Positions 2,532 to 42,910 of a stretch of DNA of 64,000 nucleotides are shown piece after piece; within the stretch, counting starts at the first letter, position 1; the number at the start of each line of letters is the position of its first letter. The notes under the pieces were generated by a model, which ran no database searches, was not told where the DNA came from, and saw nothing but the letters and a program-made list of their open reading frames with translations. The DNA comes from an uncultured Bacteroidales bacterium. Its GTDB lineage: Bacteria > Bacteroidota > Bacteroidia > Bacteroidales > Bacteroidaceae. The position numbers were made by a program, and so were the translations under genes. The stretch covers positions 1-64,000 of the forward strand of contig CADCIP010000009.1 of assembly GCA_902801485.1 (NCBI GenBank), in the 5' to 3' direction.

Positions 2532-3173
2532 ATGCGAGAGATTTTGATCAGAACAACGAGAGAGGTTGAGGTGCCTGCAGAGGCTCTCCATGCTCTGCGC
2601 AAGTCTTCCTTTGAACAATGGAAAGAGGCGGGACTGACTACATCGGTGACGAATTGTCCCGTTCAGACGCTTGCACGCTATCTTGTAGGCAAGGCTGTCT
2701 TTGTGGCACACGACGCCAAGACGGGTGAGCTGCTGGCTATGCACACTTTCCGCCTGAATAAAAAGAAACATCGTGCATCAGGTGCTAACCTGGCGGTCTC
2801 TCCTGCCGCAAAGCATGAGGGGATAGGTACGCGTATGCTGGAGGCTGAGGTGGAACGGTTCCGTAAGGCGGGATACAGATTCCTTGCCGAGGCAACGGGG
2901 ATTCCTGCTGTCTGGTCGGTAAGGTGGCACCTGAAAAACGGATACTACATTACCGGATATAAGCGAAGCGAGGGTAACAACTATGCGTCTTATACGTTCC
3001 TGAAGCCTATCGCGCTGGATGTTTTGCACCATCCGACGGATATATTCTGGACGCGACCTCTTGCTCCGATTACAGCCAAACTGCATTATTTTGTGTCGTT
3101 TATCATTACTTCGCTGGTGAAAGACAGGCAGGGGAGGCTGACGTGGTTAGGGAGGAGGATAAAGAAGGGATAA
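2532..3173 (+). CDS. GNAT-family N-acetyltransferase
   Basis: A 213-residue protein whose centre carries the GNAT acetyl-CoA site: NLAVSPAAKHEGIGTRMLEA, with the R/Q-x-x-G-x-G/A-like turn at HEGIGT and the following helix. Upstream strands (AVFVAHDAKTGELLAMHTF) and downstream strands (YITGYKRSEGNNYASYTF) complete the fold. The acceptor is unknown. It starts 5 bases after the toxin-like gene, suggesting one operon. At 213 residues it is longer than the roughly 160-residue tRNA-acetylating GNAT toxins and does not directly follow an RHH antitoxin, so it is more likely an ordinary acetyltransferase carried along. The tail WLGRRIKKG is basic. Confidence 0.75.
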   Translation: MREILIRTTREVEVPAEALHALRKSSFEQWKEAGLTTSVTNCPVQTLARYLVGKAVFVAHDAKTGELLAMHTFRLNKKKHRASGANLAVSPAAKHEGIGTRMLEAEVERFRKAGYRFLAEATGIPAVWSVRWHLKNGYYITGYKRSEGNNYASYTFLKPIALDVLHHPTDIFWTRPLAPITAKLHYFVSFIITSLVKDRQGRLTWLGRRIKKG

Positions 3174-3177
3174 TAGT

Positions 3178-3295
3178 TTAGAGTTGAGAGTTTAGAGTTG
3201 AGAGGCAGTTTAAAGAGTTTAAGAAGTTTAAAGAGTTTAAGAAGTTTAAAGAGTTTAAGAAGTTTAAGAAGTTTAAAGTTTAGAGAGTTTACGGT
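3178..3295. repeat. GAGTTTAAGAAGTTTAA microsatellite
   Basis: Blocks of GAGTTGAGAGTTTAGAG are followed by several AAAGAGTTTAAGAAGTTT units. Related GAGAGTT-type blocks lie near 6960, 9220-9270, 27285-27345, 33815-33845, 38510-38620, 50403-50437, 50846-50874 and 62541. Confidence 0.8.
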
Positions 3296-3313
3296 TTACA
3301 GTTTACCGTTTAA

Positions 3314-3448
3314 TTCGTCGACCTCAATCGCGACTTGGCCAAATGAAAGCATACTTTCTTTGGCTCTCGCTGAAGGTACTCTCGTTGACTTCGTCCACCT
3401 CAATCGCGACTTGGCCAAATGAAAGCATACTTTCTTTGGCTCTCGCTG
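3314..3448. repeat. 59-bp direct repeat, two copies
   Basis: Positions 3314-3372 and 3390-3448 are identical except for one base (GTCGACC versus GTCCACC). Each holds the imperfect palindrome CCAAATGAAAGCATACTTTC-TTTGG. The stretch CTTTGGCTCTCGCTGAAGG resembles the CTTTGGCTGTCGCCGAAGG of the neighbouring promoter units, so these look like diverged members of that family. Confidence 0.8.
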
Positions 3449-3675
3449 CTCATTCGGTTCGGAAAAACTCAAATAAATTTGGTTTTTCTCTCACTTATTC
3501 GTAACTTTGGCTGTCGCCGAAGTTACTTTCGCTCGGAAATGAAAAGAAAAACAGGCTTTTCTTTTGCATTTCTCTCGCTTATTCGTACCTTTGGCTGTCG
3601 CCGAAGGTACTCTCGTTCGGGAATAAAAATAAATTTGGATTTATTTTGTATTCCGCTCACTTAATCGTACCTTTG
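3449..3675 (+). repeat. Tandem array of promoter-bearing hairpin units
   Basis: Three units of 82-84 bp end in TAACTTTG (3502-3509), TACCTTTG (3586-3593) and TACCTTTG (3668-3675). TTTG lies upstream at 3478-3481, 3563-3566 and 3645-3648, with spacers of 20, 19 and 19 bases. Each -7 box followed by another unit sits in the left arm of a hairpin (3501-3526 and 3585-3610). In the second and third units TTTG overlaps the right arm of a second hairpin (3542-3565 and 3626-3647). Related single copies lie at 25604-25673 and 42814-42910. Confidence 0.8.
3645..3675 (+). promoter_or_regulatory. Proximal promoter of the RHH antitoxin gene
   Basis: TTTG at 3645-3648, a 19-base spacer and TACCTTTG at 3668-3675 lie 25 bases before the ATG at 3701. 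It is the last of three tandem promoter units. Confidence 0.7.
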
Positions 3676-3700
3676 ACCCGAGAAATGAAATTAGGTTACA

Positions 3701-3970
3701 ATGGAAGCAAGTTTTAAACATTCTCGTACACTAGCATCTTTCCGATTTCAGCCTGCATTAATGGAGCGCTTGAAAATAGAAGCGAAACGAAATAATGTTA
3801 GCGTAAACAGCTTCGTAGAAACAATGCTGTCTGATATGCTTTACTTCACTCCAAATGAGACAACTGTAGGTGCTATGAAAGAAACCCTTTCGGGAAAATA
3901 TGCCGGTGTTATCGACATCTCGACAAAAGAATCATTCATCAGTTCTATTCTCGACGATGAAGAAGATTAG
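3701..3970 (+). CDS. Orphan ribbon-helix-helix antitoxin-like protein
   Basis: An 89-residue protein with an N-terminal ribbon-helix-helix: the strand TLASFRFQPALMERLKIEA, then the turn and helix NNVSVNSFVETMLSDML. Such Arc/MetJ-type proteins bind DNA as dimers. The acidic C-terminal part (STKESFISSILDDEED) is the kind of tail that binds a toxin. Three tandem promoters precede it. The expected toxin gene overlaps its stop codon but breaks off after 12 codons, so the antitoxin now appears to stand alone, possibly as a leftover repressor. Confidence 0.75.
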   Translation: MEASFKHSRTLASFRFQPALMERLKIEAKRNNVSVNSFVETMLSDMLYFTPNETTVGAMKETLSGKYAGVIDISTKESFISSILDDEED

Positions 3971-25448: not shown

Positions 25449-25603
25449 GACACTGACAGGGGGACGGGAAGCCACCCATCCCCTTGTCCTACCCCATTTC
25501 GCTCGGTTTAGATAAATTTCTCACACTCAAATATACAAATTCATTTGCATATTCTTCGCTTAATCGAAATTTTGCACTATCTTTGAGATTGGCATTTCTA
25601 AGC

Positions 25604-25673
25604 TACTTCCGTTCGGAAAAGAAAAGAAAAATATACTTTTCTTTTGCTTTTCTCTCACTTATTCGTAACTTTG
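25604..25673 (+). repeat. Promoter-bearing hairpin repeat upstream of glyS
   Basis: A single copy of the unit arrayed at 3449-3675: CTACTTCCGTTCGG, then the inverted pair AAAAGAAAA (25622-25630) and TTTTCTTTT (25637-25645), then CTCTCACTTATTCG and TAACTTTG. Confidence 0.8.
25643..25673 (+). promoter_or_regulatory. glyS promoter inside the repeat
   Basis: TTTG (25643-25646), a 19-base spacer and TAACTTTG (25666-25673) lie 38 bases before the glyS ATG. The TTTG overlaps the right arm of the hairpin. Confidence 0.75.
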
Positions 25674-25711: not shown

Positions 25712-27265
25712 ATGGCACAGCAAGAAGATGTTTTCAAAAAGATAGTTTCACACTGTAAGGAGTATGGTTTTGTTTTCCCCAGCAGCGACATTTATGACGG
25801 ACTGGGTGCTGTATATGATTACGGTCAGAACGGTGTGGAGCTGAAGAACAATATTAAGCAATACTGGTGGCAGAGCATGGTGCTGCTACACGAGAATATC
25901 GTGGGTATAGATGCCGCTATCTTTATGCATCCCACCACATGGAAGGCTTCGGGTCACGTTGACGCCTTCAATGACCCCCTCATTGATAACCGCGACTCCA
26001 AAAAGCGCTATCGTGCAGATGTCCTCATCGAGGATCAGCTGGCAAAGTATGAGGATAAAATCCAAAAAGAAATCGAGAAGGCCCAGAAGCGCTTCGGTGA
26101 TGCCTTTGACGAGGCCCAGTTCCGTGCTACCAATGCACGTGTTTTGGAAAACCAGGAGAAATTCGATGCGTTGCACAAGCGCTACCAAGAGGTGATGAAC
26201 GCTGAGGGTGGCATTGATCTGGAGGGCATGAAGCAGATTATCCTGGACGAGGGAATCGTCTGTCCCATCAGCGGGACACGCAACTGGACCGATGTACGTC
26301 AGTTCAACCTGATGTTCAAGACCGAAATGGGTAGCACAGCCGATGGTGCCAGCACCATCTACCTGCGTCCCGAGACAGCTCAGGGTATCTTTGTGAACTA
26401 CCTGAATGTACAGAAAACCGGTCGTATGAAGCTGCCCTTCGGTATTGCCCAGATAGGTAAGGCTTTCCGCAACGAGATTGTTGCCCGACAGTTTATCTTC
26501 CGTATGCGCGAATTCGAACAGATGGAGATGCAGTTCTTTATTAAGCCCGGTACTGAGCTGGACTGGTTTGCCAAATGGAAGGAGACACGTATGAAGTGGC
26601 ATCAGAATCTGGGTTTCGGTGCTGAGAACTATCGTTTTCACGACCACGACAAACTGGCTCATTACGCCAATGCCGCAACAGATATCGAATTCCACATGCC
26701 TTTCGGCTTCAAGGAGGTAGAGGGTATCCATTCGCGTACCAACTTCGACCTGAGTCAGCATGCTAAGTACAGCGGCAAGAAGATTGAATACTTCGACCCC
26801 GAGACCAACGAGAGCTACACCCCATACGTAATAGAAACATCTATCGGTGTGGACCGCATGTTCCTGTCTATTATGTGCCACAGCTATGAGGAGCAGCAGT
26901 TGCCCGACGGTCAGACACGTACTGTACTGCACCTGCCCGCTGCCCTGGCTCCCGTGAAGCTGGCTGTATTCCCTCTGACCAAGAAGGACGGCATGCCTGA
27001 GAAGGCTCAGGAGATTATCAACGACCTGCGTTTCCACTTTAACTGCAAATACGAGGAGAAAGACCAGATAGGCAAGCGCTACCGCCGTATGGATGCCATC
27101 GGCTGCCCCTACTGTGTGACTGTTGACCAACAGACACTTGAGGACAATACCGTAACACTGCGTGACCGCGATACGATGGAACAGCGTCGTGTTGCCATCA
27201 GCGAACTTCGTGGCATTATAGAAGACAAAGTGAACATCACCAGTCTGTTGAAGAAACTGCTTTAA
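25712..27265 (+). CDS. glyS: Glycyl-tRNA synthetase (alpha2, eukaryote-like class II type)
   Basis: A 517-residue cytosolic enzyme that charges tRNA-Gly. The opening VFKKIVSHCKEYGFVFPSSD is that of single-chain GlyRS. Class II motif 2 is seen in AFRNEIVARQFIFRMREFEQ (FRNE..pR.g type) and motif 3 in YVIETSIGVDRMFLSIM. The C-terminal anticodon-binding domain runs from about PAALAPVKLAVFPLTKK to the end. Length is usual for Bacteroidota GlyRS. It is transcribed from a promoter carried on a dispersed repeat and is probably followed in the same transcript by the FKBP lipoprotein and GH43 genes, although 119 bases of microsatellite separate it from the former. Confidence 0.96.
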   Translation: MAQQEDVFKKIVSHCKEYGFVFPSSDIYDGLGAVYDYGQNGVELKNNIKQYWWQSMVLLHENIVGIDAAIFMHPTTWKASGHVDAFNDPLIDNRDSKKRYRADVLIEDQLAKYEDKIQKEIEKAQKRFGDAFDEAQFRATNARVLENQEKFDALHKRYQEVMNAEGGIDLEGMKQIILDEGIVCPISGTRNWTDVRQFNLMFKTEMGSTADGASTIYLRPETAQGIFVNYLNVQKTGRMKLPFGIAQIGKAFRNEIVARQFIFRMREFEQMEMQFFIKPGTELDWFAKWKETRMKWHQNLGFGAENYRFHDHDKLAHYANAATDIEFHMPFGFKEVEGIHSRTNFDLSQHAKYSGKKIEYFDPETNESYTPYVIETSIGVDRMFLSIMCHSYEEQQLPDGQTRTVLHLPAALAPVKLAVFPLTKKDGMPEKAQEIINDLRFHFNCKYEEKDQIGKRYRRMDAIGCPYCVTVDQQTLEDNTVTLRDRDTMEQRRVAISELRGIIEDKVNITSLLKKLL

Positions 27266-42813: not shown

Positions 42814-42844
42814 CAAAGTTACGATTAAGTGAGTGAAAAGCAAA
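42814..42844 (-). promoter_or_regulatory. Promoter of the second GH3 gene, inside a repeat
   Basis: On the minus strand TTTG (42841-42844), a 19-base spacer and TAACTTTG (42814-42821). The spacer CTTTTCACTCACTTAATCG is nearly that of the glyS promoter. Confidence 0.75.
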
Positions 42845-42910
42845 AGGAAAACGAATTTTTCTTATCTTTTCCGAACGGAAGTGATTTTGGCCCCAGCCAA
42901 AATTACGATT
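42814..42910 (-). repeat. Promoter-bearing hairpin repeat upstream of the second GH3
   Basis: Reading the minus strand: TTAATCGTAATTTTGG, loop CTGGGG, CCAAAATCAC, then TTCCGTTCGGAAAAG, an imperfect A-rich/T-rich hairpin, and the promoter. It is the same unit as at 3449-3675 and 25604-25673. Confidence 0.75.

Follow-up and report, generated by a model that had tools for sequence, protein, structure and literature searches.

The DNA under study is a window of 64,000 nucleotides on contig CADCIP010000009.1 of an uncultured Bacteroidales bacterium, whose draft genome (G000) is 85% complete. Near the start of the window, three palindromic units stand in tandem upstream of a small gene, each ending in a near-ideal Bacteroidota promoter (Table 1). 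The units are spaced at 84 and 82 bases, and the distance between the -33 TTTG and the -7 box TAnnTTTG is 20, 19, and 19 bases in units 1, 2, and 3. Tandem Repeats Finder places the array at 3485-3675, and unit 2 shares 96% identity with a unit on contig C64. The start codon of the gene at 3701 falls 25 bases 3' of the terminal -7 box, and the promoter of unit 3 is presumably the working promoter of that gene. From the comparisons described below, the array appears better explained as the serial insertion of a mobile element.

Table 1. Units, linkers, and associated features in the window
Feature	Positions	Strand	Description
Unit 1	3454..3509	+	5' arm absent or altered; hairpin B of CAAATAAATTTG type; -33 TTTG at 3478-3481, -7 box TAACTTTG at 3502-3509
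Linker 1	3510..3517	+	GCTGTCGC; self-complementary tip between TTTG and CGAA
Unit 2	3518..3593	+	Full 76-bp near-palindrome; -33 TTTG at 3563-3566, -7 box TACCTTTG at 3586-3593
Linker 2	3594..3601	+	GCTGTCGC; identical to linker 1
Unit 3 (terminal)	3602..3675	+	-33 TTTG at 3645-3648, -7 box TACCTTTG at 3668-3675
Gene 3' of the array	3701..3970	+	89-amino-acid protein; Pfam HicB, 24.7 bits (cut-off 21)
Second palindromic module, two copies	3307..3448	+	76-bp spacing, 95% identical; GGCCAAATGAAAG..CTTTCTTTGGC, joined to unit-like starts GAAGGTACTCTCGTT
Possible old -7 box	25578..25585	+	TATCTTTG; abuts, on the 5' side, the linker of the unit at the glycyl-tRNA synthetase gene (glyS)
Single clear unit	25600..25673	+	Before glyS (start codon near 25712); -7 box TAACTTTG, then CAGC..
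Further unit	42814..42887	-	Ends TAACTTTG; the model match, 42814-42908, also takes in its 5' box and linker

A first-pass annotation of the window had described near-ideal Bacteroidota promoters in palindromic units, and its coordinates and letters proved correct throughout on re-reading. It had drawn a first hairpin (hairpin A) as GTAACTTTGG-CTGTCG-CCGAAGTTAC at 3501-3526 and GTACCTTTGG-CTGTCG-CCGAAGGTAC at 3585-3610, and had noted a second (hairpin B) overlapping the -33 TTTG. In the window, the promoter-side pattern matches 4 times where 0.00 are expected, and the hairpin pattern 3 times where 0.07 are expected. Furthermore, 3499-3593 folds as single-stranded DNA with a z-score of -4.33, and RNA from the first promoter would fold with a z-score of -3.93. 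Together, these pattern counts and fold scores exclude chance for the array in the window. An Rfam scan of the window gave no match at the gathering threshold, and 3449-3690 had no blastn match in either the plasmid or the phage collection.

The repeat is not limited to this locus but belongs to a dispersed family. A BLAST search of the own genome with 3449-3690 located at least 47 places (of 103 candidates, 40 were scored), and in a sample of relatives, 20 of the 41 genomes, own genome included, had a match. Units were collected by an iterated profile, and 52 were aligned (50 of 53 extracted rows, nine with corrected starts, and two restored from 12 dropped rows) for a covariance model built with both hairpins. 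The element is about 84-88 bp long and consists of a short palindromic linker and a 76-bp near-palindrome whose 3' end reads TTTG-N19/20-TAnnTTTG. With the model, we obtained at least 132 matches at E<=1 in the own genome (of 2589 candidates, 150 were scored). Those at about E<0.001, 105 in number and the basis of all array counts, fall into 77 arrays: 55 of a single unit, 17 of two, 4 of three, and 1 of four. The right-end pattern, including the CTCRCTTAHTCG spacer, had 67 matches in the same genome vs 0 for the reversed control.

Further copies in related genomes, as the first-pass annotation had anticipated, were common: 70 of the 121 genomes in the family sample, representing 20 of its 30 genera, had a match at E<=0.001. 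Among the listed genomes of the window's genus that are >90% complete, the number per genome ranged from 1 to at least 35. The both-ends pattern matched at least 114 stretches, and the 80 matches listed came mostly from Prevotella, Prevotellaceae, Bacteroidaceae, and Bacteroidales, many of them from the rumen, with a few from Muribaculaceae and Alistipes; the right-end pattern also matched 17 stretches of viral contigs. Copying can be recent, since near-identical units stand at different places. Specifically, contig C57 carries two oppositely oriented units that agree at 76/76 bases, and 28 pairs of units at different places, among 70 units compared after a similarity and length prefilter, are >=90% identical. 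Tandem copies inside one array can likewise be identical. The linkers are diverse and most are self-complementary, for which the only explanation we can offer is that the linker serves as a small hairpin while the element is mobile. In the open-license literature that was searched (titles and abstract starts), no description of the repeat was found. Four weak model matches in G000 (C7:34072, C12:119197, C57:19749, and C62:2500) end in TCGCAGCCTTC or TTGCAGCCTTC, are intergenic, and have a G+C content of about 0.5.

The paired changes first noticed in the window are real and extend genome-wide. In the 52 units, the two-hairpin structure has 165 cells changed on both sides, compared with 57.0 in shuffles and 5 to 32 in slid controls, and its covariation score of 0.302 (0.112 in shuffles) was reached by 0 of 500 shuffles. 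Without a given structure, RNAalifold returned nine stem B pairs, each with at least one compensated row. One of the nine, an outer pair that is C:G in 33 and T:A in 16 of the 52 rows, links the spacer to the 5' side; hairpin B thus stands as a covarying structure but is longer than was described, extending into the spacer. When counted in 103 distinct copies on an alignment fitted to the covariance model, G-U made up 29 of the 162 non-Watson-Crick cells in stem B (17.9% vs 19.1% shuffled). Because stem B covaries strongly without an excess of G-U, we take the palindrome to be kept as DNA and not as RNA.

Hairpin A fared less well. The 5' arm CGAAnnTAC pairs with the unit's own GTAnnTTTG in 89.5% of cells, so that terminal inverted repeats are present. 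Where the unit's own and the preceding -7 box differ, the arm agrees at the first n with the own box in 12 of 15 cases and with the preceding box in 3; at the second n, the figures are 7 of 11 and 2. Among the 52 rows, those left unpaired at the first n number 9 with the own box and 18 with the preceding one, and at the second n 24 and 27, both pairings there being poor. Unit 2 of the window is an exception, its 5' arm matching the preceding box, which is the pairing that the first-pass annotation had seen; because the arms in general follow the unit's own -7 box, the case for hairpin A as the primary covarying structure is weakened. In at least 46 of the 52 rows, the 5' arm reads CGAA and not CAAA, so the palindrome is broken exactly where a reverse -7 box would arise, a break that would prevent a divergent promoter. 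Units of the related genome G050 have longer stems with many different sequences. In upstream units of that genome (L197, L198, and L201), an insert of about 40 bp with a different palindromic sequence (GCACTAAAAGCGAAGCGGCAGAGCCGAGCG and variants) separates the spacer CTTATTC from the box GTACCTCTG.

The units face genes. An open reading frame of >=100 amino acids starts within 250 bases downstream on the same strand for 56 of 64 terminal units (median, 32), compared with 15 of 60 for frames reading away upstream; the window's own downstream gene, with 89 codons for amino acids, is counted among the eight misses. A simpler call of the neighbors of all 77 arrays gave 56 on the same strand, 14 on the opposite strand, and 7 with none, and in a scan of seven loci, tRNA-Pro and tRNA-Leu genes were found after two arrays. 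Terminal units fit the sigma-ABfr promoter pattern of TTTG, 18-21 bases, and TAnnTTTG. Boxes were counted in matches extending to the final position of the model, 99 out of 110 from the own genome and 122 out of 140 from others (96 and 119 after de-duplication). The -7 box of terminal units was intact in 63/65 and 74/75 cases, respectively (137/140 pooled), whereas that of internal units was intact in 18/31 and 25/44 (43/75 pooled; Fisher P = 3e-14). Common decayed forms are TAACATTG, TAACTCTG, and TACCTCTG. The -33 TTTG hardly differs, being kept in 59/65 and 72/75 terminal units and in 27/31 and 40/44 internal ones. This pattern suggests that selection sees the last -7 box and is mostly relaxed on the internal ones. 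The earlier proposal that three serial promoters set expression is therefore at odds with the decay of most internal boxes; yet both internal boxes of the window's array look intact, and additive promoters are possible in this one array. At five loci (L005, L007, L029, L032, and L035), the terminal -7 box lies 3-5 bases before the likely start codon, a distance at which leaderless or near-leaderless messages would result.

Our results point to a fixed insertion point directly 3' of a -7 box. Before first-in-array units of the own genome, a box with >=5 of 6 fixed letters was present in 28 of 39 cases (20 perfect), compared with 3-10 of 39-40 (0-1 perfect) at eight shifted control positions. 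In other genomes, the count was 26 of 34 (12 perfect) vs 1-10 of 34-35 (0-1 perfect) when shifted. These edge boxes differ in context from boxes that follow a unit: TCG precedes TA in 10/28 and 8/26 edge boxes of the own and other genomes but in 29/30 and 37/44 boxes after a unit, and a varied context is expected if edge boxes belong to the host. Insertion directly 3' of a fixed short target is also seen at the efp, leuA, sdh, and der junctions. As to a target-site duplication, TTTG is present on each side, but TTTG is also how the element itself ends; at sdh, the difference between the two boxes makes it unlikely that a complete box was duplicated.

Orthologous loci in related genomes provided empty sites. 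We compared 30 of 55 matching genomes at efp, 30 of 56 at glyS (29 readable), 30 of 53 at sdh (24 readable), and 30 of 61 at der (17 readable). At efp, full units are present in 1 of 30 orthologues, that of the window's genome. In the relatives G180 and G182, the site reads ..TTTTTTTCGTACTTTTG followed by a leader of equal length (42/42 bases) and 93% identity to the one after the last unit in the window's genome; G004 has a weak match (E 0.008) over the last 44 model positions only. At leuA, G180 and G182 have 0 units and leaders of 40/40 bases with 90% and 88% identity, and at C12:94382, G180 has 0 units and a leader of 16/16 bases with 88% identity. By comparison, leaders of different loci had a mean identity of 44% and a maximum of 69% (n = 381).

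At der, where 6 of 17 readable orthologues have a unit or part of one, G005 reads TTTTTTTCGTACCTTTG-TCGCGCAAAATATATAG without a unit. In G162, a linker and a unit stand between ..CGTACCTTTG and TCGCGCAAAATATACAG, while G005 has nothing between ..CGTACCTTTG and TCGCGCAAAATAT... G180 and G182 bear different units at this locus, which indicates that unit content turns over. At sdh, a unit is found in 1 of 24 readable orthologues. The conserved ..GGACTTTTTTT is followed by TAAGTTTG-CA in most of the relatives that could be aligned (G182, G187, G171, G170, G013, and G168) and by TATGTTTG in G189 and G100. The window's genome reads ..GGACTTTTTTT-TATGTTTG-linker-unit-TAAATTTG-CA, with TAAATTTG as the new terminal box; since the upstream TATGTTTG is the one in G189 and G100, the upstream box appears to be the old one.

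Unit number also varies among close relatives, in line with the first-pass annotation. In a panel of 15 genes (15 of 44 gene starts, from 52 candidates), units were present at 6 of the 14 loci found in G180 and at 3 of the 12 found in G182; at nqrA, the window's genome, G180, and G182 have 4, 1, and 0 units. At gyrB, nearly the same stem occurs in all three, and this unit looks vertically inherited. At glyS, where 3 of 29 readable orthologues have units, relatives often read TATCTTTG-CAGCC and the window's genome reads TATCTTTG-linker-unit-TAACTTTG-CAGC. The TATCTTTG at 25578..25585 may be the old glyS -7 box or the end of an older degenerate unit-like stretch. The sequence CACTATCTTTG recurs at the ends of such degenerate stretches (window 25480-25577, the C11:46608 gene in G180 and G182, and L017), which are perhaps a unit subtype with a different 3' end.

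We consider it likely that the units are a nonautonomous, promoter-bearing mobile element of a REPIN/IS200-like kind that inserts behind the housekeeping -7 box and builds arrays by repeated self-insertion. An element with a complete sigma-ABfr promoter at its 3' end would insert directly 3' of a resident TAnnTTTG, before the transcribed leader. The old -7 box would be stranded upstream, where it would meet the element's CGAAnnTAC and so mimic the left arm of hairpin A, and control would pass to the element's 3' -7 box, which would lie as far from the start codon as the old one had. If another copy inserted behind this -7 box, a tandem array would result, and boxes that had become internal would then decay. 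The palindrome would be kept as DNA, most simply as a single-stranded hairpin recognized by the mobilizing enzyme. Within this scheme, the dispersed family, its orientation toward genes, the insertion point at several loci, the presence and absence of units, and the covariation at the DNA level are evident in the sequences compared. That the upstream box is the old one is supported at one locus and by the box contexts, and we infer that the terminal promoter is the one used, that the changes are gains, and that a hairpin-acting enzyme moves the element.

Some observations weigh against mobile insertion. No recognizable box precedes 11 of the 39 first-in-array units, and at least 4 of the 77 arrays (C7:34072, C12:119197, C57:19749, and C62:2500), although retained in the count, seem to belong to another repeat. 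At glyS, the upstream TATCTTTG is immediately preceded by a degenerate unit-like stretch (E 0.0018) and may therefore end an older unit; the polarity of this locus is ambiguous, and we no longer take it as evidence for the old box staying upstream. Of the 39 leader comparisons, only 10 show an identity of 85% or more. Five of the 10 involve empty relatives with a correctly placed box (efp twice, leuA twice, and C12:94382 once); the remaining comparisons involve unit-bearing relatives (gyrB, nqrA, and C11:46608), a misplaced metK box (TAGATTTG within the leader was taken as the box, so that the locus was unused as a junction), and many values near the control level. The sdh leaders, at 42-53%, are at the control level and the glyS leaders, at 67-70%, are at its edge, so that the case at these loci rests on the upstream flank or the box; leaders at C7:21181 reach 41-45%. 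In addition, the relatives are other species, and some differences could be losses. Among 37 left-end and 67 right-end matches (place lists of the 85% complete draft), no end pair encloses a gene. Finally, three unit-rich genomes (G100, G118, and G115) gave no Y1 transposase match at E<=0.001 with a profile that is weak for divergent proteins of about 400 amino acids.

Recombination or template-switch copying would yield the same products as insertion. It is conceivable, if doubtful, that the units spread by template switching or short-homology gene conversion among promoters sharing TTCGTAnnTTTG, with slippage producing arrays and quasi-palindrome correction keeping the arms complementary. 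Such correction would explain covariation without G-U intermediates, and the near-direct repeats of the -7 box that flank most units, the identical tandem copies within an array, the lack of an end pair around a transposase gene, and the failure to find a Y1 transposase in some unit-rich genomes are all in keeping with it. However, homology at the sdh insertion point extends little beyond TTTG, which is short for recombination, and the edge boxes mostly lack the element's TCG context. A range from 1 to >=35 copies in same-genus genomes also fits an enzyme-driven burst.

Closer to the idea of the first-pass annotation, the palindrome could be a cis-regulatory site, with the promoter tuned by cruciform extrusion or by a dimeric protein and the effects of tandem promoters being additive. 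We regard this as unlikely. The -33 and -7 elements do both lie within the 3' arm, the stems covary and fold as DNA, and the window's internal boxes are intact; but 29 of 30 orthologues at efp and 26 of 29 readable ones at glyS do without a full unit, internal boxes decay elsewhere, and the unit number at nqrA differs among near relatives. The stem sequences are also too different for one sequence-specific protein to be a likely reader. The earlier note had left open whether the hairpin acts as DNA or as RNA, and the second half of that choice did not hold up. Leader hairpins or terminators in transcripts from upstream starts would be favored by the predicted folding of RNA from the first promoter, yet stem B has no G-U excess, and the single units that make up 55 of the 77 arrays lie upstream of their own predicted start. 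On these two grounds, we rejected an RNA hairpin or terminator, which strikes us as very improbable.

If mobile insertion is correct, the enzyme responsible might be sought among HUH proteins. The Y1_Tnp profile matched in 12 of 24 genomes, and both G000 and G050 encode proteins of about 400 amino acids that share 30% identity and whose REP-transposase-like domain scores below the NCBIfam cut-off. They belong to a Y1/HUH family with an MPDHIH/MPDHLH motif (G000:C3:54650, L343; G050:C15:36741, L337; and G135:C36, L348). Among the loci examined, relatives were seen in G135, where the copy is partial, and as fragments close to units at C45 and in G005, and the four genomes with such proteins or fragments in these loci (G000, G050, G135, and G005) are all unit-rich. 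As candidate mobilizers, these RAYT-like proteins are a lead only. More speculatively, a RAYT-like HUH enzyme might read single-stranded DNA hairpins and use TTTG both as target and as right-end site, so that insertions replace host promoters at the same distance and self-targeting builds arrays. Under this tentative proposal, many Prevotella-type species would have had the promoters of core genes (efp, leuA, glyS, nqrA, and tRNA genes) rewired independently of one another, with copy number rising in bursts. The TTTG target is perhaps read by pairing with the element's CGAA.

Elements of the IS200/IS605 (Y1/HUH) type and their miniature derivatives insert directly 3' of a fixed tetramer and have hairpins near both ends. 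The units share both traits, with a promoter box as the target. The GTAG-type tetranucleotide that is conserved at the base of REP hairpins is missing from the unit borders, which read CGAA and TTTG. Even so, the units resemble REPINs in being palindromic doublets with a diverse middle and conservation at the DNA level; they differ in that most copies end in a near-ideal promoter facing a gene and have a fixed neighbor, TTTG. REPINs are reported to be present also in genomes without a RAYT transposase (PMC8049555). The units are, in addition, short, dispersed, noncoding, and bounded by terminal inverted repeats, like miniature inverted-repeat transposable elements (MITEs). One of these, BrickBuilt of Porphyromonas gingivalis, has been put forward as a putative mobile promoter or as an element that behaves like one (Klein et al. 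2015, PMC4596501). As described there, it resembles the element here in its Bacteroidota host, intergenic position, repetition, predicted stem-loops, internal tandem repeats, filled and empty sites, and promoter activity, which for our element is predicted. BrickBuilt is distinguished by 23-nucleotide repeats between leader and tail, terminal inverted repeats with tetranucleotide target duplications (GAAA and AAAA), and bidirectional promoters measured in Escherichia coli (PMC4596501), whereas here the 76-bp palindrome is the unit itself, the predicted promoter is one-way, and insertion is 3' of a -7 box.

The 3' end of the element fits the Bacteroidota sigma-ABfr promoter consensus, given as TTTG/TAnnTTTG (PMC7366714), and the palindrome and the CTCRCTTAHTCG spacer are peculiar to the element. 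Correia elements of Neisseria are described as small repeats upstream of genes that are able to supply promoters (PMC10969869). The units share their size, their place 5' of genes, and their (predicted) promoters. To our knowledge, Correia elements have different ends and a different target, and we know of no serial arrays of them at a promoter's own box. By analogy, then, the element would work like a mobile promoter, be built like a REPIN, and insert like an IS200/IS605-type element. Mobile promoters have been proposed before from repeats; here, the insertion point can be read from near-exact empty sites before core genes, with the -7 box of the sigma factor itself as the target. If this reading is true, the family offers a natural experiment in promoter rewiring, in which orthologues of sister species have the old promoter, one unit, or several, and bacteria can rewire core genes without touching the genes themselves. 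It also makes the use of TTTG by a hairpin-recognizing enzyme testable and is a caution to annotators, since such tandem promoters may for the most part be scars of insertion.

Other repeats surround the array. The second palindromic module at 3307-3448 is perhaps another element nested in older broken units. The module (GACCTCAATCGCGACTTGGCCAAATGAAAG..CTTTCTTTGGCTCTCGCTG) occurs in or beside broken units both there and at L009 (C16) near 1312-1530, with a relative inside the L009 unit, and it seems to be a separate repeat nested within the 5' arm. Short AGTTTAAAGAGTTTAAGA repeats occupy 3171-3312, immediately 5' of the array, and other parts of the window have more short tandem repeats, of 7-15 bases. 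At 1967-2526, two overlapping genes, which probably form a toxin-antitoxin pair, encode an 84-amino-acid protein without a Pfam match and then a protein of the ParE type (34 bits in Pfam).
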